From Desulfobulbaceae bacterium (GTDB taxonomy: Bacteria; Bacteroidota; Ignavibacteria; Kapaibacteriales; UBA2268): DNA of 64,000 nucleotides. Where the stretch lies: the NCBI GenBank assembly GCA_018335795.1, contig JAGXRP010000044.1, positions 1-64,000 of the forward strand, read 5' to 3'. The notes beneath the pieces are model-generated. The model made no database searches, was not told the DNA's origin, and saw only the letters and a program-made list of their open reading frames with translations. Made by a program: the position numbers and the translations under genes. This document shows positions 1 through 13,567 of the stretch, in pieces; position 1 is the stretch's first letter; each line of letters begins with the position of its first letter.

Positions 1-993
1 TACAATGTTTTTGGCAATAGTATGTCACCTAAAATAACGTATAAATTTAAGAATGGGGTATGGAAAAAGCATTTCAAAGTTTACGATTATCTCGGTTCGC
101 TGAGATTCACGTTAGGGGAAGATAAGGCTTTGCTGAACTACAAGCAATACGAACCCTACGGCGAAACTATGCTCGACCTCTTCGGGCTGACTCGGCAGAG
201 CTATATCGGCAAGGAGAAGGAGACGGAAAACAACCTTGGTGACCACGGCGTCCGTAAGTACGACTATGAGACGGGACGATTCAATTCGATAGACCCGCTC
301 TTTGAGAAATACTACGGCTGGAGCCCGTATCAGTATAGCATGAATAATCCGATTTGGGCGAAAGATTTTGATGGAATGAAACTTGCTTTTTCAGGCAGTA
401 ACTCAGCAATTAATAAATCTTACTCTGTAATTAACGAAGGAACTGGTGGCTTTTTTGATGCTGTTACAAATACTGATGGAAATACAATTTTAGTATCAAC
501 AGATAAACAAGGACCTCAAACTTTTAGCCAACAAGAGTTTACCTCTGAAATGATGGTAGCAATTGATTTATCAAGACCCCTAATAAATATAAATTTATCA
601 GAATCAAATAATACTCTTATTGGCAACTATACAAGTCAAGAAATAGACATTGATGATGTATTAAACTTAGGTAATGGCATCGGTATAAATTCATTCTCAG
701 CTTTCATCCATGAAATTGCCGAACAAAGGGAAAAACAATATAATAATTTGCCAAATACTGTTTTAGGTTATAAGCAAGCTCATATGATCGGGGTTAATGC
801 AGAAGATCGTGTATCAGGAGCTCAAAGAATAAGTATTTTCGACAAAGCTCCATCAACAACCTACTTAAATTCTACTGGGTCAGGAAATCTAGATCTGCAA
901 TATAAAATTTTGGGTATAGGTGCAGGCACATCCAGAATAAGTACAATATCTATTCAAATAAATGCTAACAATGTTACTGGAGTTACAAGATGA
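1..993 (+). CDS. RHS repeat-associated core protein, 3' end, with toxin-like C-terminal domain (5' truncated by window)
   Basis: The reading frame is open from base 1, so the gene starts outside the window. The first ~115 residues are an RHS core end of the Bacteroidota type: YDYLGSLRFTLG, YEPYGE, YIGKEKE, YETGRFNSIDPL, then SPYQYSMNNPI and DFDGMK. In RHS proteins this core forms the end of a large shell, and the sequence after the NNPI/DPDG point is a variable toxin domain. Here the variable part is about 205 residues and I cannot name its family. It carries HEIAEQ at 709-726 and, downstream, AHMIGVNAED, which might be a metal site but is not a classical HExxH zincin motif. The stop overlaps the start of the next gene (ATGA), as toxin-immunity pairs often do. 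The core assignment is firm; the toxin activity is inferred. Confidence 0.85.
   Translation, partial: YNVFGNSMSPKITYKFKNGVWKKHFKVYDYLGSLRFTLGEDKALLNYKQYEPYGETMLDLFGLTRQSYIGKEKETENNLGDHGVRKYDYETGRFNSIDPLFEKYYGWSPYQYSMNNPIWAKDFDGMKLAFSGSNSAINKSYSVINEGTGGFFDAVTNTDGNTILVSTDKQGPQTFSQQEFTSEMMVAIDLSRPLININLSESNNTLIGNYTSQEIDIDDVLNLGNGIGINSFSAFIHEIAEQREKQYNNLPNTVLGYKQAHMIGVNAEDRVSGAQRISIFDKAPSTTYLNSTGSGNLDLQYKILGIGAGTSRISTISIQINANNVTGVTR
249..330 (+). repeat. RHS core tail segment, reference copy (R0) of the dispersed repeat
   Basis: This part of the live RHS gene encodes RKYDYETGRFNSIDPL followed by FEKYYGWSPYQ. Its sequence recurs, progressively degraded, at 2151-2210, 2747-2830, 3497-3540 and 4042-4092. 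The left boundary of the similarity is the same in all four (the tccgtaag / tccgcaag point, near 250), while the right boundary varies. It serves as the reference for the array described in the findings. Confidence 0.85.
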
Positions 994-1343
994 AGTATAT
1001 TTATTTATTTATTATATTGAATTTAACATCTATTGGATGTATTCAAAATAGATCAACTGAATGTCATGAAATCATAACATTTGAAAAACACCTTAAAATT
1101 ATTGAAAATTATGTTGTTTTTGACAGCCTTGATTTGTCGGTTAGAAGAACAGGTTCAGTTTTTTTTCTTGAAAACGTAACAGATATCCCTTCGGAATCTG
1201 ATGCGAATTTTTTTGGTAAAATGAATCCAACAAGAACAGATTACTTATTATGGTCCAATTGGTTTAATGAACATAAAGATTCATTATGCGAAATGAAATA
1301 TAAAGTTCTTATAGATAGTTCAACGAAATTAATTAATGAATAA
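990..1343 (+). CDS. Small putative lipoprotein, candidate immunity protein for the RHS C-terminal domain
   Basis: 117 residues starting at ATG 990, inside the stop codon of the RHS gene (ATGA overlap), so translation is coupled. The N-terminus is hydrophobic (MKYIYLFIILNLTSIGC) and ends in a plausible lipobox, LTSIGC, so the mature protein would be membrane-anchored in the envelope. The rest shows no family I recognise. Position and coupling are those of an immunity gene for a polymorphic toxin; a lipid-anchored immunity protein would fit a toxin acting in the periplasm. That role is inference from context only. Confidence 0.6.
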   Translation: MKYIYLFIILNLTSIGCIQNRSTECHEIITFEKHLKIIENYVVFDSLDLSVRRTGSVFFLENVTDIPSESDANFFGKMNPTRTDYLLWSNWFNEHKDSLCEMKYKVLIDSSTKLINE

Positions 1344-1362
1344 TTTCTCAATTTAGCTTGCA

Positions 1363-1630
1363 ATACAATGTTTTTGGCAATAGTATGTCACCTAAAATAT
1401 CGTACAAATATATTAATGGAGTATGGAAAAAGCACATAAAAGTTTACGATTATCTCGGTTCGCTGAGATTCACGTTAGGGGCAGATAGGGCTTTGCTGAA
1501 CTACAAGCAATACGAACCCTACGGTGAAACGATGCTCGACCTCTTCGGGCTGACACGGCAGAGCTATATCGCCAAGGAGAAAGAGCCGGAGAACAATCTT
1601 CAATATCTGACATTCCCTCTAACACCATAA
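1363..1630 (+). pseudogene. RHS core fragment (R1), second copy, truncated
   Basis: Bases 1363-1600 align without a gap to bases 1-238 at a constant offset of 1362, with scattered substitutions. The frame reads YDYLGSLRFTLG, YEPYGE and LTRQSYIAKEKEPENNL, then leaves RHS similarity at base 1600 and stops at 1630 after nine unrelated residues. The only in-frame start upstream is TTG 1358, so this is a displaced 3' piece and not a functional gene. It begins 19 bp after the stop of the candidate immunity gene. It ends at the point of the core just before the segment that reappears as R2 (2151-2210), so R1 and R2 look like two halves of one core split by the HicBA module. Confidence 0.85.
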
Positions 1631-1701
1631 GGAATTTAAGTGAAATATTAAATCCGCTGTTTCGTGGAACATTGAAGTAGATTGTATATAAAGGATTTGA
1701 T

Positions 1702-1908
1702 ATGGATGAGATAATTTTCAAGGTGGATGAGGAGTTAGAGGGCGGATATTCTGCTTCTGCACTCGGTTTCAGCATTGTAACCCAAGGCGATACTATGGAT
1801 GAATTAAAAAGCAACATTATTGATGCTATCAAATGCCATTTCGAAGTTGATATGCCCAAAGTTGTGCGGCTACATTTTGTCCACCACGAATTATTTTCAG
1901 TCTCTTGA
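1702..1908 (+). CDS. hicB: HicB-family antitoxin (module 1)
   Basis: 68 residues from ATG 1702, preceded by AGGA at 1691-1694. The partial RNase-H-like HicB fold is recognisable from VDEELEGGYSASALGFSIVT (GY.A...G....G pattern) followed by the helix GDTMDELKSNIIDAI. HicB neutralises the HicA ribonuclease and usually represses its own operon. The protein is short for HicB and has no separate C-terminal DNA-binding domain, as in many minimal forms. Its stop overlaps the TTG start of the next gene by 4 bp. The antitoxin-first order is the less common one for hicAB loci but is well known. Confidence 0.75.
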   Translation: MDEIIFKVDEELEGGYSASALGFSIVTQGDTMDELKSNIIDAIKCHFEVDMPKVVRLHFVHHELFSVS

Positions 1909-2150
1909 AAACCCCAAGGAACATAAGTGGCGTCGAACTTGCTAAGTTGTTGTCAATTTATGGTTATAGTATTAGTCGGCAAACCGGAAGTCACATTAGG
2001 CTAACAACGATTCAAAACGGCGAACATCACTTAAGCGTTCCAAGCCACAGCCCTCTTAAAATAGGCACATTAAATTCAATCATCAAAGAACTTTCAAGTC
2101 ACATCGGTAAGTCGAAACAAGAAATCTATAGCGAATTGTTAGACGCTTAA
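1905..2150 (+). CDS. hicA: HicA-family mRNA interferase toxin (module 1)
   Basis: 81 residues beginning at TTG 1905, which overlaps the hicB stop (TTGA). The double-stranded-RNA-binding-like HicA fold is clear: ISGVELAKLLSIYGYSISRQ, then the catalytic-histidine motif GSHIRL, and HHLSVPSHSPLKIGTLNSII (the usual H..P.H...L..GTL..I). HicA cleaves mRNA and is held by HicB. The stop at 2148-2150 is immediately followed by an RHS tail fragment with no spacer. Both genes look intact, so the module may still be functional. Confidence 0.8.
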   Translation: MKTPRNISGVELAKLLSIYGYSISRQTGSHIRLTTIQNGEHHLSVPSHSPLKIGTLNSIIKELSSHIGKSKQEIYSELLDA

Positions 2151-2210
2151 TCCGCCATCTGCAAGTATGACTACGAGATAGGACGATTCAATTCGATAGA
2201 CCCGCTGTGG
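2151..2210 (+). repeat. RHS core tail fragment R2
   Basis: Starts directly after the hicA stop. It encodes KYDYEIGRFNSIDPL in one frame, then diverges (WEHSCTS and stop). It is similar to 249-306 of the RHS gene with several substitutions. No start codon or ribosome-binding site serves it, so it is a non-coding remnant. Confidence 0.85.
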
Positions 2211-2291
2211 GAGCACTCTTGTACTTCATAAAATAAAATAAAATGCTTGGTGTCCTTAAACATAGTATGTTAGAATAAGAGTTGCTGAAAA

Positions 2292-2471
2292 ATGCTTGAA
2301 GTTAAGTACATCACAAATGATAAAGGTGAAAGAACCGATGTGGTAATGCCATTATCTGATTACATAGAAATCCTTGAAGAAATCGAGGATTTACGGGTGA
2401 TTGCCGAACGCAGTGGTGAAGAGCTGTTCACACATTCTGATGTCGAAAAGTTGCTCAAATCCGATGAATAG
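2292..2471 (+). CDS. Phd/YefM-type antitoxin (59 aa)
   Basis: 59-residue gene from ATG 2292 to TAG 2469-2471. The sequence reads MLEVKYITNDKGERTDVVMP, then LSDYIEILEEIEDL, and ends VEKLLKSDE. The VVMPLSDYIEILEEIEDL pattern (hydrophobic strand, then an acidic amphipathic helix) is typical of the C-terminal part of Phd/YefM or RelB-like antitoxins that wrap around RelE-family toxins. It overlaps the next gene by 8 bp (2464-2471). A full Phd DNA-binding N-terminus is absent or very short, so autoregulation may be weak. Confidence 0.65.
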   Translation: MLEVKYITNDKGERTDVVMPLSDYIEILEEIEDLRVIAERSGEELFTHSDVEKLLKSDE

Positions 2472-2724
2472 CTATCAGATTTTGTGGAAAAAATCGGCAG
2501 TAAAGGAGTTGCAGAAATTGCCTCCTGATATAGCTTGCAGTATCTTTTCTATAATTAGCGATTTATCTGCCGAACCAAGACCTCACAATTGCAAAAAGTT
2601 GATAAGCCTTGCTAATCATTATCGAATGCGTGTGGGCGATTATCGCGTAGTATATCGCGTTGAGGATGAAATTCTGGTAATTGAAATCATACGCATTGGG
2701 CATCGCAAGGATGTATATAGATAA
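2464..2724 (+). CDS. RelE/ParE-family toxin
   Basis: 86 residues from ATG 2464. Upstream TTG 2401 would also be in frame but lies deep inside the antitoxin gene. The RelE fold is recognisable: YQILWKKSAVKELQKLP, ISDLSAEPRPHNCKKL, YRMRVGDYRVVYRV and the terminal IIRIGHRKDVYR. The basic and aromatic residues at the C-terminus (R, H-R, Y) match the ribosome-dependent mRNA-cleaving site of RelE relatives. The coupling to the 59-residue acidic protein upstream makes this a standard antitoxin-toxin pair. It is intact and is followed 22 bp later by an RHS tail fragment. Confidence 0.8.
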   Translation: MNSYQILWKKSAVKELQKLPPDIACSIFSIISDLSAEPRPHNCKKLISLANHYRMRVGDYRVVYRVEDEILVIEIIRIGHRKDVYR

Positions 2725-2746
2725 TTATAAATTAAATGCCACTTCT

Positions 2747-2830
2747 GTCCGCAAATGCGGCTACGAGACGGGGCGATTCAATTCGATAGACCCGCTCTTT
2801 GAGAAATACTACGGCTGGAGCCCGTATCAG
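2747..2830 (+). repeat. RHS core tail fragment R3 (longest copy)
   Basis: Similar to 249-332 of the RHS gene. One frame reads KCGYETGRFNSIDPLFEKYY then GWSPYQ, and leaves RHS similarity at QKQRIK. It is the longest tail copy and retains the FEKYYGWSPYQ stretch that the other copies lost. It lies between the RelE-type toxin and the VapB-type antitoxin gene and has no own start site. Confidence 0.85.
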
Positions 2831-2899
2831 AAACAGAGAATAAAATACTTATTAAGTCAATTTGTCTTAACTTATTATGAAGTTTAAGTAGGAGCTATT

Positions 2900-3097
2900 A
2901 TGATAGCGGTAAGAAAAAAAATAGTGTCTAAGGAGTTGATAATTCCTGAGTTGGAGGAGTTCATCGGCAAAAATGTTGTGATTTATATAAATGAAGAAAG
3001 CGACAATGGTTCAAAGGAGGCTTTTTTTGATTGCATAAACAATATTGAAATTGATGAATTAGTCATCGAAAATTCTCGTGAGATAAGTGTTATATGA
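2900..3097 (+). CDS. VapB-like antitoxin
   Basis: 65 residues from ATG 2900 with a purine-rich AGGAG at 2889-2893. The segment SKELIIPELEEFIGKNVVIY resembles the short N-terminal strand region of small antitoxins paired with PIN toxins (DUF2281-like). The C-terminal half is acidic. The stop overlaps the start of vapC by 4 bp (ATGA), which is the main support for the role. The family itself is not certain. Confidence 0.65.
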   Translation: MIAVRKKIVSKELIIPELEEFIGKNVVIYINEESDNGSKEAFFDCINNIEIDELVIENSREISVI

Positions 3098-3477
3098 TAT
3101 TAGTAGATACGAACGTTATCATTGACTTCTGGAAGAATCCAACCGACTCTTCGAGACGTGTGTTTGAAAACGAAGAGGTTTTTGTCTGCGGAGTCGTTAA
3201 AGCTGAATTGCTTCACGGGGCTGTTGACGAGAACTCTTATGTAAAGATTAAGAAAGCCTTGGATTGCTTCCCCGAAATAGTTATTAGTAGCGAATTTTGG
3301 GATGATTTATCCGCAAATTTATTTAGATTAAAGAGAAAAGGTTTGACTGTACCATTCCAAGATGCCATGATTGCAACTATCGCCATTTCGAACTCACTCA
3401 GATTATGGACACTGGACAAGCACTTCTCTGTAATTAAATCTGTTTTAAAAGATTTAACGCTTTTCAGACTTGATTAA
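3094..3477 (+). CDS. vapC: VapC-family PIN-domain ribonuclease toxin
   Basis: 127 residues. The PIN domain acidic residues are all visible: D5 in MILVDTNVIIDF, the Glu of VVKAELLHGA, the Asp of PFQDAMIATIA, and the Asp of LWTLDKHF. These coordinate the metal used for RNA cleavage, typically of tRNA. The length is normal and no frameshift is present, so it should be active. It is coupled to the antitoxin upstream by a 4-bp overlap, and an RHS tail fragment follows 19 bp after the stop. Confidence 0.88.
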   Translation: MILVDTNVIIDFWKNPTDSSRRVFENEEVFVCGVVKAELLHGAVDENSYVKIKKALDCFPEIVISSEFWDDLSANLFRLKRKGLTVPFQDAMIATIAISNSLRLWTLDKHFSVIKSVLKDLTLFRLD

Positions 3478-3496
3478 ATATCTCACGGCATACCTC

Positions 3497-3540
3497 ATCC
3501 GCAAGTACGGCTACGAGACGGGACGATTTAATTCGATAGA
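3497..3540 (+). repeat. RHS core tail fragment R4
   Basis: 44 bp similar to 251-294 of the RHS gene, encoding RKYGYETGRFNSID before running into a stop (NR*). It has the same left boundary as the other tail copies and is the shortest of them. It separates vapC from the second HicBA pair. Confidence 0.8.
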
Positions 3541-3617
3541 CAATAGGTAGAGATTTCGCATTTACAATATTCGTTCGCTTTAAGTATCATATTATATATG
3601 TGAAATGGAGGTAATAG

Positions 3618-3842
3618 ATGAACTTAAAATTGACAATGAAATACGAGAAAGTACCTGAGGGCTATATCGGATACATTGATGAACTTCCGGGAGCGAATTC
3701 TCAAGGTGTCACGTTGGAGGAAGTGAAGGCAAATTTGCTTGAAGCAATTGATTTGGTGCTTGAAGCGAATCGCTACCTCGGCTCTTTGGACTCAACGAAA
3801 GAAATATATTTTCAAGAAGAACTTGAGTTAGTGACTAAATGA
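3618..3842 (+). CDS. hicB: HicB-family antitoxin (module 2)
   Basis: 74 residues from ATG 3618 with GGAGG at 3607-3611. It has the canonical HicB core YEKVPEGYIGYIDELPGANS, then QGVTLEEVKANLLEAIDLVL. It is not a recent duplicate of module 1: the two HicB proteins are clearly divergent, and the order of features around them differs. It overlaps hicA by 4 bp (ATGA). Confidence 0.82.
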   Translation: MNLKLTMKYEKVPEGYIGYIDELPGANSQGVTLEEVKANLLEAIDLVLEANRYLGSLDSTKEIYFQEELELVTK

Positions 3843-4033
3843 AACGTAAATTATTTATCGCTTTTTTGAAATCGAGCGGTTGTGAATTTTTACGTGAGGG
3901 TTCTAATCACTCATTGTACATTAATCTCGAAAATAAAAAAGCTTCGACCGTCCCAAGACATAGCGAGATAAATGATAATCTCGTTAGAAAAATCTGTAAA
4001 GATTTAGATATCCCCAACCCATACAAAAAATAA
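3839..4033 (+). CDS. hicA: HicA-family mRNA interferase toxin (module 2)
   Basis: 64 residues from ATG 3839. The HicA motifs are present: FLKSSGCEFLREGSNHSLYI (with the catalytic His in GSNHSLY) and STVPRHSEINDNLVRKICKD. This is the short type of HicA, preceded by its antitoxin gene. It is intact and followed 8 bp later by the last RHS tail fragment. Confidence 0.82.
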   Translation: MKRKLFIAFLKSSGCEFLREGSNHSLYINLENKKASTVPRHSEINDNLVRKICKDLDIPNPYKK

Positions 4034-4041
4034 ACAAAGAA

Positions 4042-4092
4042 CATCTGCAAGTATGACTACGAGATAGGACGACTCAGTTCGATAGCCCCGCT
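4042..4092 (+). repeat. RHS core tail fragment R5 (most decayed)
   Basis: About 51 bp similar to 249-299 of the RHS gene, reading KYDYEIGRLSSIAPL. Its first ~25 bases share the atctgcaagtatgactacga variant with R2, suggesting that R2 and R5 are more closely related to each other than to R3 and R4. Last recognisable RHS piece in the window. Confidence 0.75.
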
Positions 4093-4163
4093 ACTTTCAT
4101 TAATCCAAAATAAAACATTAGCAATGGTATCAATAAATTAATTTGTTGGATAAGGAAATTTGA

Positions 4164-4349
4164 GAGATAGGAACTGTAAATATACTTATAGAAGAGTACA
4201 AGGCTCTGATTGATGAGAATCGTATTCTTAAGAATCAAGATTTGTGCAATCACTTCCCTTCCTTCTCCTACAAATACAAAACGGATAATGCATCAATGAC
4301 ATTGGTATCAAAATCATTCCACCCATACCCTCAAATTAATTTATATTAA
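4164..4349 (+). pseudogene. Possible antitoxin gene remnant
   Basis: An open stretch without an ATG or strong start encodes VNILIEEYKALIDENRILKN and runs to a TAA at 4347-4349. The ILIEEYKALIDEN part resembles the helix of Phd/YefM-type antitoxins. The remainder (HFPSFSYKYKTDN and on) does not. Given that every other RHS fragment in this region is followed by a toxin-antitoxin pair, this may be what is left of a fifth one. Weak evidence: similarity is by eye over ~15 residues. Confidence 0.3.
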
Positions 4350-4698
4350 TGTTACGTCAATAGTTTATTAATGAAAAAAGCATTATATTTCATGTGCTGA
4401 ATATGACATTAATCGGGATAATAAGACAAGCGCACGAGCTTATTCAATTTGCTATCTCTTGTGTTGTTTCTATTAGCGGGTCATATGAGTAAAGAAATTT
4501 TACATGGGCTTATAGAATGTTCGAACTTACACTATTGACAAACTGATTTCTTACATTAAGTAATAACATTGTATTCACATACTTTGATTTTGACTTAAAT
4601 AGACTAGCCTACGTTTCCCTGAAAGAGATTTTAGAAACGAGCATCATAAATTTTGATTTGTAGATTTTATACATTTAACAAATGGATTAACTTTATAA
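4350..4698. other. Gene-free stretch between the RHS/TA array and the beta-helix gene
   Basis: About 350 bp, AT-rich, with stops in all frames and no RHS similarity. No tRNA, convincing promoter or terminator hairpin seen. It probably marks the right edge of the accessory region. Confidence 0.6.
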
Positions 4699-4710
4699 TT
4701 GGAGTCTATT

Positions 4711-5754
4711 ATGAAACAAGTTCTTTTCTTTCTAATTATGCTCTCATGGCATATCGGCTTATTCAGCCAATCAGCGATTACTATCACTTCTCAAAACGGA
4801 ACAACTAAAGTGGCGACTAATTTGATAAGTGCTATTGAGTTAGCTCAAACAGACGATATACTTTATTTACCCGCAGGAAATTTCGATCTCAAAAATGTAG
4901 TCGTAAACAAGAAATTGCACATCATAGGTGCAGGTTACAATCCCAAAATCAATGGAACTAACTCAGTTACATATTGTACAGGTACATTAACTATAACGGA
5001 TGCAGGTAGTGGCGGTTCTGTGCAAGGGATATATGTCTCGGGATCAATCCAATTTGGTACAAGCTTGGCTACTTCAAGCGTGAAAAATTATGTTATTCAA
5101 CGATGCTTTTTCAATGTTTTACTTTTGGGATATACTTGGGATGGTTTCAATGAAGCTGAAAATATTGTAGTTCGTGAAAATATTGTGGAAGGTGCCATTT
5201 TTGGAGGTAAGGCAAAAAATGTAATTGTAAGCAACAATTACTTAAGGCAAACAGGTGTTACAGCTCGTTTAGTAACACATTTTGCGAACGCGAAATTCTA
5301 CAACAACATTTTTGTCACGATTGATAACTATCCTTTCAATGGTATTTGGGGATGTATTTTCGAGAACAATATAGTAACATTTGGGAATTTTGGCTACGTA
5401 AATGCTTTTGAAAACAATCAATACCTCAATAACCTTTATTGTCACGAACCTGGTTTGAATGCAATCGGTGTGGTACGAAGCGAAGGTAATGTTTATATGC
5501 CTTTAGAAGATATATTTGTTAATTATACAGGTGGTCCTCTGAGTTTTGATGATAATTACCACCTTACACCAGCAGCACTTAGCGCTATTACCGGTACAGA
5601 TGGGACTCAGGTAGGTATTTATGGTACGACTAATCCATTTAAAGAACTTGGTATCCCTGTCAACCCTATAATTCAAACCAGTAAGGTAAGTTCTATGACA
5701 AACCCAAAAGGGCAACTGAAAATTGAATTCAAAGTTGAAGCACAAAATAAGTGA
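4711..5754 (+). CDS. Secreted right-handed beta-helix (pectate lyase-like) protein
   Basis: 347 residues from ATG 4711, six bases after a GGAG ribosome-binding site at 4701-4704; TTG 4699 is in frame but overlaps that site. A signal peptide (MKQVLFFLIMLSWHIGLFSQ) leads into a parallel beta-helix: SAIELAQTDDILYLPAGNFD, KKLHIIGAGYNP, then repeating N-rich rungs such as NVIVSNNYLRQTG, KFYNNIFVT and IFENNIVTFG. No pectate-lyase catalytic residues could be assigned, so it may be a surface or adhesion protein and not an enzyme. It lies just upstream of the large T9SS-type protein with a 7-bp gap and is probably co-transcribed with it. No sorting domain of its own is evident. Confidence 0.75.
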   Translation: MKQVLFFLIMLSWHIGLFSQSAITITSQNGTTKVATNLISAIELAQTDDILYLPAGNFDLKNVVVNKKLHIIGAGYNPKINGTNSVTYCTGTLTITDAGSGGSVQGIYVSGSIQFGTSLATSSVKNYVIQRCFFNVLLLGYTWDGFNEAENIVVRENIVEGAIFGGKAKNVIVSNNYLRQTGVTARLVTHFANAKFYNNIFVTIDNYPFNGIWGCIFENNIVTFGNFGYVNAFENNQYLNNLYCHEPGLNAIGVVRSEGNVYMPLEDIFVNYTGGPLSFDDNYHLTPAALSAITGTDGTQVGIYGTTNPFKELGIPVNPIIQTSKVSSMTNPKGQLKIEFKVEAQNK

Positions 5755-5761
5755 GGATAAT

Positions 5762-8700
5762 ATGAAAAAGCTTATTTTTTTCTTATTATTTCCTATTCTG
5801 ATTAATTCAATTTTCGCACAAAACCAAATAGTCGAATACGAATATTGGGTTAATGAAGATATTGGAAATAAAATTACTCACTCAGTGGCGCCAACAGCTT
5901 TGCTTGAACTTGAAACCGAGTTAGATTTATCAGCAGTCAATTCCGGTTTTAATACAATTAATATTAGATTCAAAGATAAAGTCGGCAAATTCAGTCCAAC
6001 ATTTTCGCAGCATTTTTTCAAAGCGGGTAAATCAAATGCAGATGCAAATAATATAGTCGAACTTGAATATTGGGTTGATGATGATTATGATTCACACCAA
6101 CGTATTGAAATTGACGGTGGAATTGATATTAACGAATTTGCAGATTTGAAATCCTTGAGCAAGGGTTTTCATACATTGCATATCAGGTTCAAAGATGAGT
6201 CTGATTTGTGGAGTCAGACGATTTCTAAGATATTTTTCAAAGCGGGTTCGGGAAATTCTGATGAAAATTTGATTGTTCATTATCGCTATTGGATTGATGG
6301 AGAATTCGATAATGCGAAAACGGTAAAATTGCAGAAAGCTCTCAAACTGTTTGAGATTAACAGCATCATAGAGCTTCCTGACGAAAGTGCCGAAACATTT
6401 TCGATACAATTCCTCGATACTGCCGGATTATGGAGTAGTGCTTATACAAGGGCTTTCATACCCGAAGCTGAATTTGATATTTTTAATACTATAAACACAT
6501 TCACATTCCAAAATCAGACAACTTTTGGCGGCACTTACAAATGGGACTTTGGCGACGGCAATAAGTCCGAACAAGTGCATCCTTCACATACTTACACAAT
6601 ACCCGGAGTTTATGATGTTTGCTTAATTGCAAATAATAAATTAGGAAGTGACACCTTATGCAAAATTGTTACGGTTAACGGAATTCGCGAAGTCTTTGTA
6701 AAGAGTGCCGGGAATGAAGGTTATGCTACAATCAATGTCTATGGCGGAGGATTTAAAGAAGGAAGTAAAGTTTGGCTCGAAAAAGGTGGAATTAAATATC
6801 TGGATCCGGAAAGTGTTCGACTGTCTCAACTCGATGCATTGGAAGCAAGATTTGATTTAACGGACCAGCCACTAAACACATATGACGTAGTTGTTCAATT
6901 GCCGGACGGTACGAAATGGAAACTTGAAAATGGATTCGAAATCGTTCAAGCTACCAAACCACAACCTTATGCTAATTTCAATGGTCGAGATAGAATACTA
7001 TTCGGAAGATGGCAAACATATACTATTGATTTTGGAAATACGGGCAATAATGATGCTCTTGGTGTTCCGATATATTTCATGATAACTATGCCTACAAGCA
7101 TTGAAATTGAATTCAAAAACTTGAAAATGTCGCAGAGTGAATATTGGCAATCCAACCCAGAGTATGCTGAATTATTAAATGAGCCCGATTTTATCGAACA
7201 TACAGGCTATTTCGACGGACCTCAAAAAGTCAGATTATACTCATTTTTCGTCCCGATAATCCCTGCTAATTTCAGCGGGCAAATCGAAGTAAGAATCCGA
7301 ACAAACGAAAGCTTTAAAGCCTACACATGGTTTAACGAACCAATGTTTGAAATAGTTCCCGGTGGAATTGTTCTAAAAGATGAAGAGGTTCTGAGTGCTG
7401 CTATTGACAAAAAAACAGCCGCATGTTTGCGTGCAGTTATGTTCCAAGCAATGAAAGACGGAATAGCAGAAGTCGTTAATAATTTAATACCCGGCGTAGG
7501 ATGCGCCAATTCAATTCTTAACCTCACAATGGATCCGGCAGGATATTTGGCACCCGACCCTACAAATCCGGATTATAATCGCCCAAAAACATGGAGAGAA
7601 AAAATTTGGGGATGGGGTGGCACAGTTAAGGATGTTGCTGTGGTAATTGCAGGGTGCGCCAGTGATGCATTGCCACTCAAACAAGCTTATAAAACTGCTG
7701 TTGCCGTTGTGTCGGTCATCAACAATATCTACGGCGGTATTCAAGCCGGCAGAGAGTGTTACACAAAATATGGCAATGGCAAAAAGGACATTGCGGCAGT
7801 AGGGAGTTTTGACCCGAATGAAATTGTTGGGCCCGGTGGCTATGCTTCGGATAATTTTGTCAACACTTACGGATTTGCCTATACTATCTTTTTCGAAAAC
7901 TTAGCAACTGCGACAGCTCCGGCACAAGAAGTTGTCATAATTGATACGCTCGATAGAACAAAGTATGATTTGAATTCTTTCAGTTTCGGTAATTTTTCAT
8001 TTGGCGGCAAAACTTATGCTCCTATGACAGGATTAAAACAATTTACTTTAGATATCGAACCTGAAGGTAGTTTTGGCAATATCGTCCGAGTTAATGCCAA
8101 TTTTGATACCCAAACTGCAATAGCTTACTGGCAATTCATCACACTTGATCCCGAGACAATGGATTTGACAGAAGACCCTGACGGAGGTTTTCTGCCGCCA
8201 AACAAAACTTCGCCGCAAGGAGAAGGCAATGTGTCATATTCTGTTAATTTGCTCAACACTTTGGGGAATGAAGTCGAAATTAATGCGAAAGCTGATATAT
8301 TTTTCGACTTGAATCCTGCAATTACTACAAACAATTATTCCAATAAATTGGATTTGGCACCTCCGACAAGCAAACTGAATTCAATTCATGCAACGTTGCA
8401 AGAGAATTTGTATCGAATCGAGGGAACCAGCAATGATGACGAAAGTGGAGTCAGATACAGAATCATTCACGCTTCGATGGATGGAGGCGAATATATGCCG
8501 ATTGTAACCGGTTATGATGAAACGATTTACGTAGAATTGGACTTAAGCAACACCTACCATTTCTTTAGTCAGGCAATTGATAGTGTGGGCAATGTTGAGC
8601 CAATGAAGTCGAACTATGAAATCACTTCGCTTAACGTCCAATCTGTTGATTATATGACGATTGGATGCGAAGTTTCAATTATGCCAAACCCGACATCCGA

Positions 8701-8920
8701 TAAAATTCAAGTAAAAATTGCTTTGGAAAGACCTTCAGATGTTATAATTTCGATTTATGACCTCAGCGGGCAGGTGATTTTACTACGCAATTTAGGGAAT
8801 ATTTATTCAGATGAATTAATCGAAGAAATTAATTTATCAGAATTTAGCAATGGCAGATACATAGTCAGAGTCAAGACATCGGAGCAAAGTATCATAAAAA
8901 TGTTAAATATTATCAAATAA
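5762..8920 (+). CDS. Large multidomain secreted protein with PKD domain and T9SS C-terminal sorting domain
   Basis: 1052 residues from ATG 5762 (GAGGATA at 5752-5758); in-frame starts upstream lie inside the previous gene. A signal peptide ending SIFAQ is followed by three ~75-residue repeats starting near residues 25, 100 and 173 (EYEYWVNED, ELEYWVDDD, HYRYWIDGE), the first two with the IRFKD..G..S ending and FFKAG. A PKD domain spans ~240-310 (KWDFGDGNKS, HTYTIPGVYDV). An IPT-like segment follows. Near residue 683 comes FDPNEIVGPGGY, as in DUF7619-type domains of long Bacteroidota proteins. The last ~80 residues (IMPNPTSDKIQV, ISIYDLSGQV, NGRYIVRVKT) are a type A sorting domain, directing export by the type IX system and surface attachment. 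The protein is probably cell-surface or secreted; its ligand is unknown. Confidence 0.85.
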   Translation: MKKLIFFLLFPILINSIFAQNQIVEYEYWVNEDIGNKITHSVAPTALLELETELDLSAVNSGFNTINIRFKDKVGKFSPTFSQHFFKAGKSNADANNIVELEYWVDDDYDSHQRIEIDGGIDINEFADLKSLSKGFHTLHIRFKDESDLWSQTISKIFFKAGSGNSDENLIVHYRYWIDGEFDNAKTVKLQKALKLFEINSIIELPDESAETFSIQFLDTAGLWSSAYTRAFIPEAEFDIFNTINTFTFQNQTTFGGTYKWDFGDGNKSEQVHPSHTYTIPGVYDVCLIANNKLGSDTLCKIVTVNGIREVFVKSAGNEGYATINVYGGGFKEGSKVWLEKGGIKYLDPESVRLSQLDALEARFDLTDQPLNTYDVVVQLPDGTKWKLENGFEIVQATKPQPYANFNGRDRILFGRWQTYTIDFGNTGNNDALGVPIYFMITMPTSIEIEFKNLKMSQSEYWQSNPEYAELLNEPDFIEHTGYFDGPQKVRLYSFFVPIIPANFSGQIEVRIRTNESFKAYTWFNEPMFEIVPGGIVLKDEEVLSAAIDKKTAACLRAVMFQAMKDGIAEVVNNLIPGVGCANSILNLTMDPAGYLAPDPTNPDYNRPKTWREKIWGWGGTVKDVAVVIAGCASDALPLKQAYKTAVAVVSVINNIYGGIQAGRECYTKYGNGKKDIAAVGSFDPNEIVGPGGYASDNFVNTYGFAYTIFFENLATATAPAQEVVIIDTLDRTKYDLNSFSFGNFSFGGKTYAPMTGLKQFTLDIEPEGSFGNIVRVNANFDTQTAIAYWQFITLDPETMDLTEDPDGGFLPPNKTSPQGEGNVSYSVNLLNTLGNEVEINAKADIFFDLNPAITTNNYSNKLDLAPPTSKLNSIHATLQENLYRIEGTSNDDESGVRYRIIHASMDGGEYMPIVTGYDETIYVELDLSNTYHFFSQAIDSVGNVEPMKSNYEITSLNVQSVDYMTIGCEVSIMPNPTSDKIQVKIALERPSDVIISIYDLSGQVILLRNLGNIYSDELIEEINLSEFSNGRYIVRVKTSEQSIIKMLNIIK

Positions 8921-8942
8921 TATTTAATCACGGAAATTGAAT

Positions 8943-8970
8943 AACCCGTCGTAAAATACGGCGGGTTTTC
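8943..8970 (+). terminator. Rho-independent terminator
   Basis: Stem aacccgtcgta / tacggcgggtt with a short A-rich loop, followed by ttttcttt. It lies 22 bp after the T9SS protein stop. The stem is symmetric and sits between convergent genes, so it may also serve the minus-strand glycan operon that ends at 8978. Confidence 0.8.
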
Positions 8971-8977
8971 TTTTACA

Positions 8978-9718
8978 TCACATCTTCAATTTCATAAAAA
9001 GAGATTCGGGGACGGATTTGACTATACACATGATTAAACGCCAAAAGCCCGGAACATATATCACACCAGATTTTCCGGCTTTCATAGCTTCGAAAATTTT
9101 CTTTCCGACAGCAGGGTAAGATGCGAAAAGGAAGTTTTTGGGTACGTGTGATGTCATCGGCGTGTCCACAAAACCCGGTTTGATTGTCAGCACAGATACG
9201 CCCTTGTGGAACATTCGATTGCGTAAACCCTGAAAATATGTGCTGACAAAACCTTTAGCTGCGCCGTAAATGTAGTTGCTTTGTCTGCCACGGTCACCTG
9301 CCACACTGCTTATCACTGCAATCATTCCTTTGCCCAAAGGTTCGAAATAATTTGCCGCAATTGTAGCCAAATTAACCACAGAAACGCCATTTGCCACGAT
9401 TTCGCGATTGATTGCATCCAAATTACTCGCGATTTTTTCTTGGTCGGGTAATGTGCCGTGTGCTATTAAAACGGCATCAATCGCTCCGGCATTTGCAAGT
9501 GCTTCATCAAACGATTTTTGATATGTTGCATCGTCAATCGCATCGAAATAAAATGTTGAGACGTCTGCCGAATAGCGTGTTTTCAGGTCGTTCGCTAAAT
9601 CATTTAATTTATTCTCATTCTTTGCCACGAGTAATAATTTCCATTTATCTAGAGCGAAATTAACGGCTGTAGCTTGAGCTATTGCAGATGTGGCACCATA
9701 AATTAATACTGTTTTCAT
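8978..9718 (-). CDS. Short-chain dehydrogenase, DprE2-like (decaprenyl-P-2-keto-erythro-pentose reductase)
   Basis: 246 residues starting at ATG 9718 (a longer in-frame start at 9745 overlaps the upstream gene). Rossmann glycine motif GATSAIA at residues 8-14, IAHGT near 86-89, catalytic Ser near 138 and YGAAK at 151-155 (YxxxK). The GATSAIAQ form and the gene order, directly behind a DprE1-like oxidase, fit DprE2, which reduces the 2-keto intermediate to decaprenylphospho-arabinose. Last gene of the minus-strand glycan operon, 2 bp from its neighbour. SDR membership is certain; the specific substrate rests on context. Confidence 0.8.
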   Translation of the reverse strand: MKTVLIYGATSAIAQATAVNFALDKWKLLLVAKNENKLNDLANDLKTRYSADVSTFYFDAIDDATYQKSFDEALANAGAIDAVLIAHGTLPDQEKIASNLDAINREIVANGVSVVNLATIAANYFEPLGKGMIAVISSVAGDRGRQSNYIYGAAKGFVSTYFQGLRNRMFHKGVSVLTIKPGFVDTPMTSHVPKNFLFASYPAVGKKIFEAMKAGKSGVIYVPGFWRLIMCIVKSVPESLFMKLKM

Positions 9719-9720
9719 AA

Positions 9721-11016
9721 TTATTCCTTTGTTACTCTTTTCCAAAAACTTGAGGAAAATTTAGGGTCTATATATTTTGCGAAATCCGTCCATTGCGGAT
9801 AAAATGCTTTGAAATTCTCAGGTGACATTCGGGCGTCTTTGCAAGGATAGACCACTCCTCCGACTGAGTTGACTATATTATCGGATTCGTCTAATATCTT
9901 GAGCAATGCATCGCCTATCATTTTGAAATCTATGGCGAGCGTGACACCTTCGCGTGGAAATGACATCATACCGGGCGATTTTATATTTCCGAATGTTTTT
10001 AAAACAGTCAAAAAAGATGATAGTTTTGAGCGTGTAATTAAATTAAATATTTCCTTCAATACATTAATATAATTATCGAATGGAATTACAAATTGATATT
10101 GCACAAAGCCTTTTTTCCCATATGCTTTATTCCAACCATCAACTGCATCAAGCGGATAGAAAAATGGCTCGAAAGATACATCTGCCTTTTTAATTCGCGA
10201 TAATTGTTTATTATAATATAATGTATTAAATGCTTTTACGGTTAACGGATTAATTAATTCCATATTTAATGGAAATGGTAACATTTTGCCATTTGTGGAC
10301 TTATACGGTTTTTGTCTGCTTTTGGGAGCGAAATTACCTCGATTATATAATCCTCTGCCCGGCACTGATGTATCAACCCAAGCAACGGTATAATTGTAAT
10401 TTTCTGAATTTTGCGTAATATCGAAAAATTCTTCAAAAGTGCGAAATTTAATACTTTCAGATTCGATTATAGGTCCCGGGCATTCCACAGTTTGGAAGCT
10501 AACTTTTGTAATAATGCCGGTAAGTCCAAGCCCGCCAATTGTAGCAGCAAATAATTCAGAATTAATTGTTTTGGAGCATTGAAGCAATGTTCCGTCCGAA
10601 CGGAGCAATTCAAGCTCTGTGACGTGACAACCAAATGTGCCTGCCTTATGATGATTTTTGCCATGTACATCATTTGCGATTGCACCACCAAGAGTTACAT
10701 ATTTTGTGCCCGGAGTGACCGGCAAAAAACGTCCGCGAGGAAGCAAAAAGTCTATGCAATCAGCCAAAGTGGCTCCGGCGTAGCAAGTCAAAATACCTGT
10801 TTCTTCATCATAATTAATAAATTTATTAATTCCGGAAATATCGAGTAGTGTTCCACCGTCAATTAAGCAACTATCGCCATAGCTTTTACCCAAACCATAA
10901 GGCAAAATATCGCCTTTAATTTCTCCAATATTTTGTAAGTCATTATACCAAAAATATTTGATTAGATTTTGATTGCTTTGTTTGGGGTAATTTCCAAATG
11001 ATAATGTTGTTTCCAT
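9721..11016 (-). CDS. FAD-linked oxidase, DprE1-like (decaprenylphospho-ribose 2'-oxidase)
   Basis: 431 residues. FAD-binding-4 (VAO/PCMH) features: LPYGLGKSYGDSC at 39-50 and PGTKYVTLGGAIANDVHGK at 102-120, with the NDVHGKNHH stretch typical of DprE1 and of the related arabinose oxidases. The C-terminal GGVVYPCKDARMSP resembles the DprE1 active-site segment with its conserved Lys (K393 here). The family oxidises the 2'-OH of decaprenylphospho-ribose. At the position that I align to mycobacterial Cys387 (the target of benzothiazinone drugs) there is Ala (A361, in GVTLAIDF). The ATG shares one base with the stop of the upstream UbiA-type gene (TAATG), a translational coupling that supports a joint pathway. 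Confidence 0.8.
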   Translation of the reverse strand: METTLSFGNYPKQSNQNLIKYFWYNDLQNIGEIKGDILPYGLGKSYGDSCLIDGGTLLDISGINKFINYDEETGILTCYAGATLADCIDFLLPRGRFLPVTPGTKYVTLGGAIANDVHGKNHHKAGTFGCHVTELELLRSDGTLLQCSKTINSELFAATIGGLGLTGIITKVSFQTVECPGPIIESESIKFRTFEEFFDITQNSENYNYTVAWVDTSVPGRGLYNRGNFAPKSRQKPYKSTNGKMLPFPLNMELINPLTVKAFNTLYYNKQLSRIKKADVSFEPFFYPLDAVDGWNKAYGKKGFVQYQFVIPFDNYINVLKEIFNLITRSKLSSFLTVLKTFGNIKSPGMMSFPREGVTLAIDFKMIGDALLKILDESDNIVNSVGGVVYPCKDARMSPENFKAFYPQWTDFAKYIDPKFSSSFWKRVTKE

Positions 11017-12440
11017 TATAACATTCCAATTACGGATAAAATAAAAATAATCATAATTACGAGATGGCTGGCTTTATCACGAATTGCAAAGACAACAGGG
11101 TCATGATGAATATGCCCCCGATTGGCTAATAGCCAAGTACGTGTAATCCAATATAATATCACAGGGGCGATAAGATACATTACTACATGATTTTTGTAAA
11201 GAACGACAATTGCCGGAGAATTAATATAAAGCACATAAACAAGAACTGAGATTAATCCGGAAGCAACACCAATTATCATCATCAAAGTTGTATCGTCTGT
11301 ATTATATCCGCGAACGGATTTGTTTGAGTTGTTCAATTCGATAGACCTCAGCTCTATAAATCTCTTTAAACTTGCCAGCGATAGGAAGAAAAACATCGAA
11401 AATGACAGCAACCAATGTGAAATCAAAGTATCGGTAGCCACTCCGCCGAGCAATAGACGCAAAGTATATAATCCGGCCAAAATTATTATATCTGCCATAT
11501 TCAGTCGTTTGAACCATAATGAATATAATACAGTTACGACAAAATAAAGCAATATCACACCCATTGTATCAAAACCTTTGGCGAAATAAGCTAAAAGTAC
11601 GGCTATTACAAACAATACAGGAACAAGTTTTGCAGCGGTTAGTATTTTTAGTCTGCCGGATGCAAGAGGGCGATTTTTCTTGTCAATATGCTTACGGTCT
11701 GCTTCGATATCGAATAAATCATTGATAACATAAATTGCAGATGCCATAAAACTCAAAGCAAAAAATGTCAGCGTACTGCTGATTACCATGCTTTGGTCTA
11801 TGACATGGGCAAGCAACATCGGCAAAAATACAAGCGTGTTCTTAACCCATTGATAGACTCGAAGTTGTTCTGTTAATATTTTTAATTTCGATTTGGATTT
11901 ATCGTCTATGATTTGCGTTGCAGCACTTTGGAATTCATTCTTGATTTCGTCAGAACAATTGACTAATATTTTGCCATTAGAATTTTGCCATACAAATCGG
12001 TCTTTGTAGCTGTCGCCTATGTAATCAAACTGTCCTTTGCCAAATCGTTTGACTAATAAATTGGATTTCGTTTTCCCGACGAGATTTATTCCATCCCTTG
12101 AAGCAATTGTTTCTTTAAAAAAAGTAAATCTCTCGCCGACTTTTTCCGCAATAGTATGATACGATGCCGTAACTAAATATACTTCTCTACCGGCGGCATG
12201 AGCGGCTTCGGAAATTCGGATGATTTCCTCATTGTAGGGTAAAATATCAACATTTGGTCCAACTCGCTTTGCCAATTGTTCTTTCAGCTCATATCGCCCT
12301 TTCATCAACCAAATAGGGAGCATGAAAATATAGAAAATATTCTTTTTCAGCAACAAAAAAATTGACTCGAACATAATATCAGTTCGAATCAAAGTGCCGT
12401 CCAAATCAACACAAAGTGGGTATTTATTCAAATCTTGCAT
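11016..12440 (-). CDS. HAD phosphatase-UbiA prenyltransferase fusion (decaprenyl-phosphate phosphoribosyltransferase-like)
   Basis: 474 residues with two domains. Residues ~1-185 are a HAD-type hydrolase: DLDGT at 12-16, TAS near 91-93, K near 133 and IGDSYKD at 141-147. Residues ~190-474 are a UbiA membrane prenyltransferase with NDLFDIEAD at 240-248, KNRPLASG just after it, and RGYNTDD further on, plus about eight membrane segments. UbiA proteins of this subtype transfer phosphoribose from PRPP to a polyprenyl phosphate; the HAD domain would remove the 5-phosphate, making polyprenylphospho-ribose for the DprE1/DprE2 pair that follows. Fused forms occur in other Gram-negative arabinose loci. 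It starts 3 bp after the glf stop. Confidence 0.82.
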   Translation of the reverse strand: MQDLNKYPLCVDLDGTLIRTDIMFESIFLLLKKNIFYIFMLPIWLMKGRYELKEQLAKRVGPNVDILPYNEEIIRISEAAHAAGREVYLVTASYHTIAEKVGERFTFFKETIASRDGINLVGKTKSNLLVKRFGKGQFDYIGDSYKDRFVWQNSNGKILVNCSDEIKNEFQSAATQIIDDKSKSKLKILTEQLRVYQWVKNTLVFLPMLLAHVIDQSMVISSTLTFFALSFMASAIYVINDLFDIEADRKHIDKKNRPLASGRLKILTAAKLVPVLFVIAVLLAYFAKGFDTMGVILLYFVVTVLYSLWFKRLNMADIIILAGLYTLRLLLGGVATDTLISHWLLSFSMFFFLSLASLKRFIELRSIELNNSNKSVRGYNTDDTTLMMIIGVASGLISVLVYVLYINSPAIVVLYKNHVVMYLIAPVILYWITRTWLLANRGHIHHDPVVFAIRDKASHLVIMIIFILSVIGML

Positions 12441-12442
12441 TA

Positions 12443-13567
12443 TTATCTTAAATGTGCTATACTTTTTTCAAATTTCTGAAGTGTAACCCCTACAATTTGG
12501 TCCATATTATAATATTTATAATCTGCCAATCTGCCCACAAAAATCACATTTTTGAGTTTTTCGGCATCGGCAGCATATTTCTTGTAGATTTCGTCATTTT
12601 CTGCTCGTGGAATTGGGTAATAAGGGTCATTTTCGCCGATTACATATGGTTGCGGATATTCGTAAGCAACAGTTGTGCGATGGTGATTTTGCATTGTCAA
12701 GTGCTTGAACTCGGTGATGCGTGTATAATCATGATTATTTGGGTAATTGATTTGCGCCCCCGATTGGAATTGCTCCATATCGAAATTGACAAGTGAGAAT
12801 TTCAAACTTCTGTACGGTAGTTCCCCATGGGAATAATCAAAAAAGTAATCAATTGGACCTGAATATATGATTTTATCGAATTTGATATCGTCAATAATTT
12901 CTTTATAATCAGTTTTCAAAAGTATTCTGATGTTTTTGTTAGCAATGATTTTCTTGAACATTTCTGTATAACCATACTTGGGAATACCTTGGTAAGTATC
13001 TTGGAAATATCTATCGTCGCGTGAAATGAAAACAGGAACGCGTGAAGTAACCGTATAATCCAATTCGTCGGGTTTCAAGCCCCATTGCTTGATAGTATAA
13101 CCAAGGAAAACATTTTTGTAGATATATTCTGCAAGAAATTTAATATCCGCGTCATCGGTTTCACGCATTTTCAAAATCGGAATTTTCAGTCCAAAACCAT
13201 AATATCCGATGAGTTTATTTTCTAATTTTTGGGCAAAATCCGGTGGGAAAACTGTGTATAATGAGTTCAGATTGAAAGGAACAGGAACTAATTTACCTTC
13301 GACAACTGCTTTGACATGATGAACGTAGGGATTCCATTCGGTATATTGCGACAAATAATCCCATACTTTTTTTGATGATGTATGAAAAATATGCGGTCCG
13401 TATTTATGCACGAGCAAACCTGCTTCGTCATAGTAATCATAAGCATTGCCGGCGATGTGGTCTCGTTTGTCAACAATCAGAACTTTTTTGCCTAATTCAC
13501 TCGTGATGCGTTCTGCCATAACGCATCCGGCATAGCCCGCACCAACTATCAGATAATCAAATTTCAT
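12443..13567 (-). CDS. glf: UDP-galactopyranose mutase
   Basis: 374 residues, typical length. N-terminal FAD Rossmann motif YLIVGAGYAGCVMAE, then DKRDHIAGNAYDYYD, HKYGPHIFHTSSKKVWDYL (the conserved substrate-lid region), and PVPFNLNSL. The C-terminal part carries YEYPQPYVIGENDPYYPIPR and VGRLADYKYYNMDQIV, both strongly conserved in Glf. The enzyme interconverts UDP-galactopyranose and UDP-galactofuranose, so the operon is expected to make a galactofuranose-containing glycan. Overlaps the flippase gene by 4 bp. Confidence 0.95.
   Translation of the reverse strand: MKFDYLIVGAGYAGCVMAERITSELGKKVLIVDKRDHIAGNAYDYYDEAGLLVHKYGPHIFHTSSKKVWDYLSQYTEWNPYVHHVKAVVEGKLVPVPFNLNSLYTVFPPDFAQKLENKLIGYYGFGLKIPILKMRETDDADIKFLAEYIYKNVFLGYTIKQWGLKPDELDYTVTSRVPVFISRDDRYFQDTYQGIPKYGYTEMFKKIIANKNIRILLKTDYKEIIDDIKFDKIIYSGPIDYFFDYSHGELPYRSLKFSLVNFDMEQFQSGAQINYPNNHDYTRITEFKHLTMQNHHRTTVAYEYPQPYVIGENDPYYPIPRAENDEIYKKYAADAEKLKNVIFVGRLADYKYYNMDQIVGVTLQKFEKSIAHLR

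Follow-up and report, generated by a model that had tools for sequence, protein, structure and literature searches.

Toxin–antitoxin pairs alternate with RHS core pieces

The DNA analysed is a 64,000-nt stretch, hereafter the window, which forms the first 64 kb of contig C44 (JAGXRP010000044.1; 84,663 nt) in the 3.53-Mb assembly GCA_018335795.1 of a Kapaibacteriales bacterium (genome G000). Its left end holds an array in which remnants of an RHS gene alternate with toxin–antitoxin (TA) modules. The order on the plus strand is the C-terminal part of an RHS core (R0) fused to a variable tip, a lipoprotein-like gene, core piece R1, hicBA-1, R2, a relBE-like pair, R3, vapBC, R4, hicBA-2, R5 and a decayed mazE (Table 1). 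As the window begins at the end of contig C44, the RHS gene is incomplete at its 5′ side. Behind the core lie several direct repeats of it that differ in length, as in RHS displacement arrays, and their core type is that of the local RHS gene: R1 and R3 are 92% and 93% identical to R0, and members of a 51-nt family at positions 249, 2156 (R2, the reference copy), 2746, 3496 and 4042 place R0, R3, R4 and R5 at 78–94% identity to R2. Using an 85-nt query in which R2 was joined to the R3/R0 end, we searched the whole genome and recovered R0, R3, R2 (itself part of the query), R5 and R4 with E values of 2.8e-29, 1.4e-26, 2.5e-20, 1.6e-16 and 1.8e-9, respectively. As the next genomic match has an E value of 0.26, the pieces are not chance similarities. 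The alternation of R1–R5 with TA pairs, proposed in a preliminary description of this DNA, is thereby confirmed, and the objection that the pieces might be random matches fails.

All four TA pairs consist of open frames, with the antitoxin preceding the toxin in each. The toxins score over the Pfam cut-offs, the antitoxin matches are weak or absent, and each pair consists of two adjacent small genes, as in type II TA modules. The earlier naming of two hicBA pairs, a vapBC pair and a relE toxin, all on the plus strand, stands, whereas the antitoxin of the relBE-like pair is RelB-like by Pfam and not Phd/YefM. The distances from a stop codon to the next RHS piece are about 15, 5, 22, 18 and 8 bp, within a few bases of the 19, 0, 22, 19 and 8 bp given before; the starts of R2–R5 are 590, 750 and 546 bp apart (~790 bp from R1 to R2), a slightly wider period than the 550–710 bp first estimated. 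A recognisable tip is present on R0 only, and R1–R5 carry TA modules or a TA remnant. PADLOC returned no match among 10 proteins, and the 19 matches to plasmid records were all below 60% identity.

Table 1. Features of the RHS/TA array at the left end of the window
Feature	Position	Strand	Evidence
R0, C-terminal part of RHS core, truncated by contig start	1..375	+	TIGR03696 48.9 bits
Variable C-terminal tip fused to R0, presumed toxin domain	376..993	+	Open frame 1–993; no Pfam match
Lipoprotein-like small gene, presumed immunity protein, overlaps tip gene	990..1343	+	Open reading frame (ORF); no Pfam/NCBIfam match
R1, RHS core piece	1359..1600	+	1364–1600 92% to 1–237; 91–92% to copies in loci L011 and L047
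HicB-1 antitoxin, named by position and HicA overlap	1702..1908	+	ORF; protein identical in congener G001; no antitoxin model matched
HicA-1 toxin	1905..2150	+	PF07927 43.6 bits
R2, RHS core piece, begins 5 bp past HicA-1 stop	2156..2213	+	Reference copy of 51-nt family
RelB-like antitoxin	2292..2471	+	PF18506 26.4 bits (cut-off 27)
RelE/ParE-family toxin	2464..2724	+	PF05016 52 bits; TIGR02385 34.2 bits
R3, RHS core piece	2747..2830	+	93% to 250–333
VapB-like antitoxin, named by position	2900..3097	+	ORF, 4-nt overlap with VapC; no family match
VapC (PIN) toxin	3094..3477	+	PF01850 44.2 bits; NF047959 66.2 bits (under cut-off 80)
R4, RHS core piece	3496..3541	+	Nucleotide matches to 51-nt family and 85-nt query
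HicB-2 antitoxin	3618..3842	+	PF21748 (UPF0150) 26.6 bits (cut-off 27.3)
HicA-2 toxin	3839..4033	+	PF07927 35.5 bits at C44:3854–4012
R5, RHS core piece	4042..4092	+	94% to R2
Last cassette, decayed leader and mazE antitoxin start	4106..4245	+	84% to L011 11197–11335, beside RHS piece on contig C60 (mazE intact there)
Array right edge	4333..4345	.	Synteny with congener G002 from 4333; window 4333–13042 vs L084 8717–1, 88.5%

Cassette content differs at corresponding loci of congeneric genomes

We compared G000 with the genomes of two congeneric species, G001 and G002, across nine loci. Two loci hold RHS/TA arrays of differing content in all three. At the first, G000 (contig C60) carries an RHS core piece, then mazEF and a hicB that lacks its hicA, ahead of a tRNA-Arg gene; this MazF is the sole PF02452 match in the genome. 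G001 has RHS, an immunity-like gene, RHS, DUF2442, RHS, HicBA1, RHS and HicBA2, and G002 has RHS, RelB alone, an immunity-like gene and RHS, with a contig end near. The left flank is common to all three, that of G001 being on a separate contig (C21) which abuts the locus with its end, a link that we infer; the right flank is common to G000 and G001 and was sought in G002 without being found. On C60, the array is adjoined by a gene (L011 9519–10061) which, from its translation, we take to be like a REP-associated transposase (RAYT).

The second locus is flanked by genes presumably encoding a 2-oxoacid oxidoreductase. Here G000 (contig C59) has an immunity-like gene, an RHS piece, an antitoxin–YafQ-like pair (PF15738 27.6 bits, cut-off 30) and, directly past the toxin stop, a putative diverged RHS scrap that was read by eye (more than 2 mismatches in 18). 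G001 has immunity-like genes, antitoxin–YafQ, an RHS scrap and MazEF, and G002 has immunity-like genes, HicBA1, RHS, a RelB frame running into a HicB2-like end, and antitoxin–YafQ. The left flank is found in all three genomes and the right flank only in G001 and G002; the YafQ pair of G000 is unlike that of the other two. A whole unit of RHS scrap, leader and mazEF is present in G001 and absent from G002: in G001 the YafQ stop is followed by the scrap (17/18 bases, the sole such place in 10 kb), mazEF and the flank, and in G002 directly by the flank. On contig C36 of G002, six ORFs in a row (L174 4193–7667), several of them lipoprotein-like and none with a toxin tip, resemble an orphan immunity array directly 5′ of the HicBA-1 cassette, and the passage of the RelB frame into the HicB-2-like frame end (L174 8341–8526) may record a deletion between two cassettes of the array.

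At the window locus, the array is found in G000. The right flank of G002 starts at window position 4333, and the 19 kb compared in G002 contain no RHS core match; G001 lacks window 4333–8976. When the G002 left flank was sought in G000, only an array-adjacent stretch and one 49-base match were returned, which gives no empty site for the window array. The same cassettes also occur at different loci: no two of the three genomes have HicBA-1 at the same locus, MazEF occupies two loci in two genomes and a remnant of it a third locus, RelB is found at three loci and HicBA-2 at two, VapBC being confined to the window among the nine loci. The differing content at the same locus is a property of displacement arrays, seen here at the level of congeneric species. 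It had been anticipated that, if TA pairs belong to the RHS cassette stream, different TA families would stand behind equivalent RHS pieces and whole cassettes would vary between relatives, and both are the case. The same TA order without RHS pieces occurs at none of the loci examined, and the comparable G001 stretch has one RHS piece between HicBA-1 and HicBA-2. In summary, the earlier interpretation of the TA pairs as members of that stream is supported.

The alignment of the window array itself points to exchange at the RHS pieces. Window 1494–2194 and 3498–4033 align to adjoining G001 stretches that overlap in one 37-bp RHS piece, and R2–relBE–R3–vapBC–R4 therefore stands opposite a single RHS piece in G001. 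This is as expected if R2 had recombined with R4, or if the two middle cassettes had entered at one piece. Between G000 and G001, third codon positions differ at 8/68 in HicB-1 and at 194/589 in two flank genes (p = 1.6e-4). HicB-1 is thus less diverged than its flank, which would follow from an exchange of the cassette later than the split of the genomes.

The modules are also in different states of decay. In G001, premature stops interrupt MazF and both HicA frames, the antitoxin frames being still open, and the C60 hicB and the G002 relB are without a toxin partner. The toxin was the first component to be lost here, which agrees with TA logic and recalls orphan immunity genes. Within one genus, arrays whose TA modules are intact-looking, toxin-dead or remnants lie side by side.

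RHS/TA arrays recur in the family with a common strand and tight spacing

We extended the comparison to relatives, namely metagenome-assembled genomes (MAGs) of Kapaibacterium/Ignavibacteria and similar. An RHS core match at E ≤ 1e-10 was found in 29/60 genomes (G000 counted), and arrays were read from ORF lists and family matches. In G034 (L044–L046), VapBC, four DUF4160–DUF2442 pairs, MazEF, PemK and HicBA lie among RHS tip–immunity-like pairs, and tip-like genes and TA modules are intermixed in L044, L045, L050 and L049. DUF4160/DUF2442 is given as the TA pair dhiTA of Dickeya in a table of PMC8198452. The G005 array holds DUF4160–DUF2442, a PIN_3 pair and BrnT, and that of G012 HicBA, DUF4258 with a weak MqsA-like partner, and DUF2442. 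Further arrays were found in G014, G023, G033, JAONBD010000026 (RelE), GWF2_33_9 and DYLM01000007, of which DYLM01 seems to be the assembly behind G033. Outside the window, the array modules are mostly adjacent antitoxin/toxin pairs of known families, the C59 YafQ being under its cut-off. The left and right ends of the RHS pieces vary widely along the core, and the left ends of R2–R5 lie near the same core position. A second RHS core type (tail like SPLTYRDPTG) is likewise interspersed with ParE, PIN and DUF4160–DUF2442 modules at L130 and L087 of G034; the pattern is therefore not tied to one core. Repeats were noted inside RHS cores: 37-nt inverted arms form an insert at L045 6414–6525, and a 24-nt unit occurs twice at L047 9269–9316, near the core position where R2–R5 start.

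To quantify the association, five toxin families (HicA, DUF4160, ParE, PemK and PIN) were searched in 20 of the 29 RHS-matching genomes, G000 included; all 20 were selected for RHS matches, and the other nine, of different families, were left out. Within 1 kb of one of 68 RHS matches lay 25/466 toxin matches, in 9/20 genomes, as against 0.85 expected under uniform placement (24/465 without one extra PemK row, two PemK rows being pieces of one gene). By family, these were HicA 7/139, DUF4160 7/59, ParE 2/94, PemK 5/64 and PIN 4/110, and all 25 are on the RHS strand. When the 465 rows were merged into 5-kb clusters, 14/350 were RHS-near versus 0.77 expected (p about 1e-13), at 14/42 RHS loci. 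The 40 'control' TA loci are not RHS-free: L125, L130, L134 and L148 carry RHS matches with E values below the best reversed-sequence match (0.026), L141 is borderline (0.041), and L146 (0.006) and L152 (0.021) are unclear. RHS-linked TA modules are therefore probably undercounted in 25/466.

Strand and spacing were scanned in 33 loci, mostly chosen for their arrays, using models built from array toxins. Of 67 TA genes situated 1 kb or less from an RHS piece, 66 are on its strand, the exception being a PIN_3-like gene in L068. The close spacing between a TA stop and the next RHS piece, described earlier for the window, recurs: 37 toxin/DUF2442 genes are followed by a piece at no more than 400 bp, at a median distance of 19 bp (range −54 to 270), a count that omits DUF4160, BrnT and DUF4258 and includes 8 negative gaps, probably from tblastn running back into the TA gene. 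A TA gene lies within 400 bp downstream of 32/98 RHS pieces in the window's family versus 0/36 in sister-family loci, a comparison whose p value is a guide only, since it applies TA models from the window's family to hand-picked loci with pieces that are not independent.

A typical unit comprises an RHS core piece, a leader of mostly 40–100 bp and a TA pair, often with the next RHS piece within about 20 bp. The motif AAAATAA is present in 16/30 array leaders, and a related but different pattern in 5/42 control leaders (5/47 control toxins were dropped as no start was found). The leaders of relB, mazE and DUF4160 share a stretch like AAAATAA...TTGGTGTCC...TTAGTTTG (window 2230–2292, L011 11190–11256, L102 4765–4830 and L141 about 560–620), which is perhaps a promoter or the left end of the cassette.

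Proposed exchange of TA cassettes between RHS remnants

To explain these observations, we consider it probable that the locus is an RHS displacement array in which type II TA modules circulate as cassettes beside the usual tip–immunity pairs, moved by homologous recombination between RHS remnants. RecA-type recombination would excise a unit between two flanking RHS pieces and insert it through a single crossover into another piece, as in the circular-intermediate model put forward for RHS tips by Jackson et al. 2009 (PMC2935791), whose circles carry 'any intervening genes'. Such a model would explain variable piece length and the gain and loss of units without new machinery. Initially, a TA module would have become joined to an RHS core by illegitimate recombination. 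More speculatively, loss of a cassette may be penalised by addiction, with TA modules persisting and the deletions invited by direct RHS repeats being countered. The data suggest that leftover RHS DNA acts as a cassette holder for swapping in and out, with no dedicated recombinase (no search for an integron integrase was made). With the same proviso, a bolder version is that decaying RHS cores form an integrase-free platform, with remnants as homology sites, TA modules and weapon tips in one stream of exchange that connects three or more chromosomal loci as well as different genomes, and TA modules locking the array against direct-repeat erasure; we hold this only tentatively, at less than even chance.

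Several points weigh against exchange between RHS remnants. Third positions of HicB-2 differ at 16/74, not clearly below the flank (p = 0.06), and recent movement is therefore not required for every cassette. Because R4 does not end where the G001 piece does, no crossover can be assigned to the inside of the piece; with lengths below 25 bp, some RHS scraps are also short for RecA. Flanks are partly shared at the tRNA-Arg locus (G001 left on another contig) and at the second locus (G000 left only), and with three congeners insertion and deletion are indistinguishable. Movement is deduced from end products, no recombination event or circle having been observed, and 441/466 toxin matches lie farther than 1 kb from any RHS core match. 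Stabilisation of the array by TA addiction is plausible and is weakened by the decayed toxins; as G001 toxins have decayed and the G002 RelB is without a toxin, lasting addiction is doubtful in these congeners, and any addiction would be temporary.

Alternatively, RHS loci and TA modules might simply pile up in the same variable islands, without RHS-dependent movement. TA genes are indeed common and clustered (466 matches in 20 genomes) and the arrays lie in variable regions, yet the same-strand bias (25/25 and 66/67), the tight 3′ spacing (median 19 bp over 37 genes), the presence or absence of whole units edged by RHS pieces, and the 0/36 sister-family pieces followed by a TA gene make such co-location unlikely. 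We give still less weight to a site-specific or transposition-like process, for instance REP/RAYT-associated or leader-recognising, that inserts TA units into RHS sequence. It would agree with the closely similar left-end position of R2–R5, the AAAATAA leaders (16/30), the RAYT-like gene (a label of our own reading) beside the C60 array and the repeats that interrupt RHS cores in G034 and G001. However, the other piece ends are spread widely along the core, no target duplication or constant end was seen (no systematic search was made), and the leader motif may be merely a promoter, a related pattern occurring in 5/42 controls. Because piece boundaries vary, RHS-specific targeting by a mobile process is not needed.

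It is very improbable that the RHS pieces serve the TA genes as promoter or insulator, or that the TA toxins are RHS-delivered effectors: many modules do lie close behind an RHS piece, but the TA genes are provided with start codons and leaders of their own, each window pair begins with the antitoxin, the pieces differ in length and core part, and most toxin matches (441/466) lack a nearby RHS core match. Assembly artefact or contamination was rejected. Although contigs break in RHS repeats and the contamination estimate is 3.09%, the same architecture is present in independent assemblies, including named MAGs and G034 (6 contigs).

Relation to known systems

Cassette exchange between RHS remnants would join contact weapons and addiction modules, which are usually treated apart, and would offer chromosomal TA modules a concrete means of spreading that needs neither phage nor plasmid nor integrase. 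It also makes testable whether TA modules protect repetitive arrays from deletion. Among the titles and abstract openings listed in a limited literature search, with subscription literature and preprints outside its scope, none describes RHS/TA arrays; the new element is TA modules as regular cargo of RHS displacement arrays in one bacterial family.

In chromosomal integrons, promoter-bearing TA cassettes lie between repeats, with a proposed stabilising effect on the array. The present arrays likewise set TA cassettes between repeats, but these repeats are gene remnants that differ in length and core part, with no constant recombination site. In polymorphic toxin systems (Zhang et al. 2012, PMC3482391), RHS and other genes similarly undergo recombination of toxin–immunity cassettes at their 3′ ends; that survey records the classical RelE domain as a toxin domain just once, whereas here RelE and others form separate, unfused TA operons. 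The orphan immunity-gene arrays of the Vibrio type VI secretion system (PMC5361080) are comparable in their sequential displacement by homologous and illegitimate recombination and in the accumulation of leftover protective genes. Their cargo is unlike ours in being immunity genes of the same weapon, and the term 'toxin-antitoxin' does not occur in the text of that paper.

The closest likeness is to the RHS C-terminal displacement arrays of PMC2935791, in which strings of core pieces of varying length lie downstream of an RHS gene, with one core clade per locus, different cargo for each piece and a proposed homologous recombination with circles. The cargo there consists of dissociated RHS tips, and 'toxin-antitoxin' has no occurrence in that main text; many of the cargoes in the present arrays are TA operons, intracellular and with leaders of their own. 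As R1–R5 carry no recognisable tip, the window array is best described as a variant of the RHS displacement arrays.

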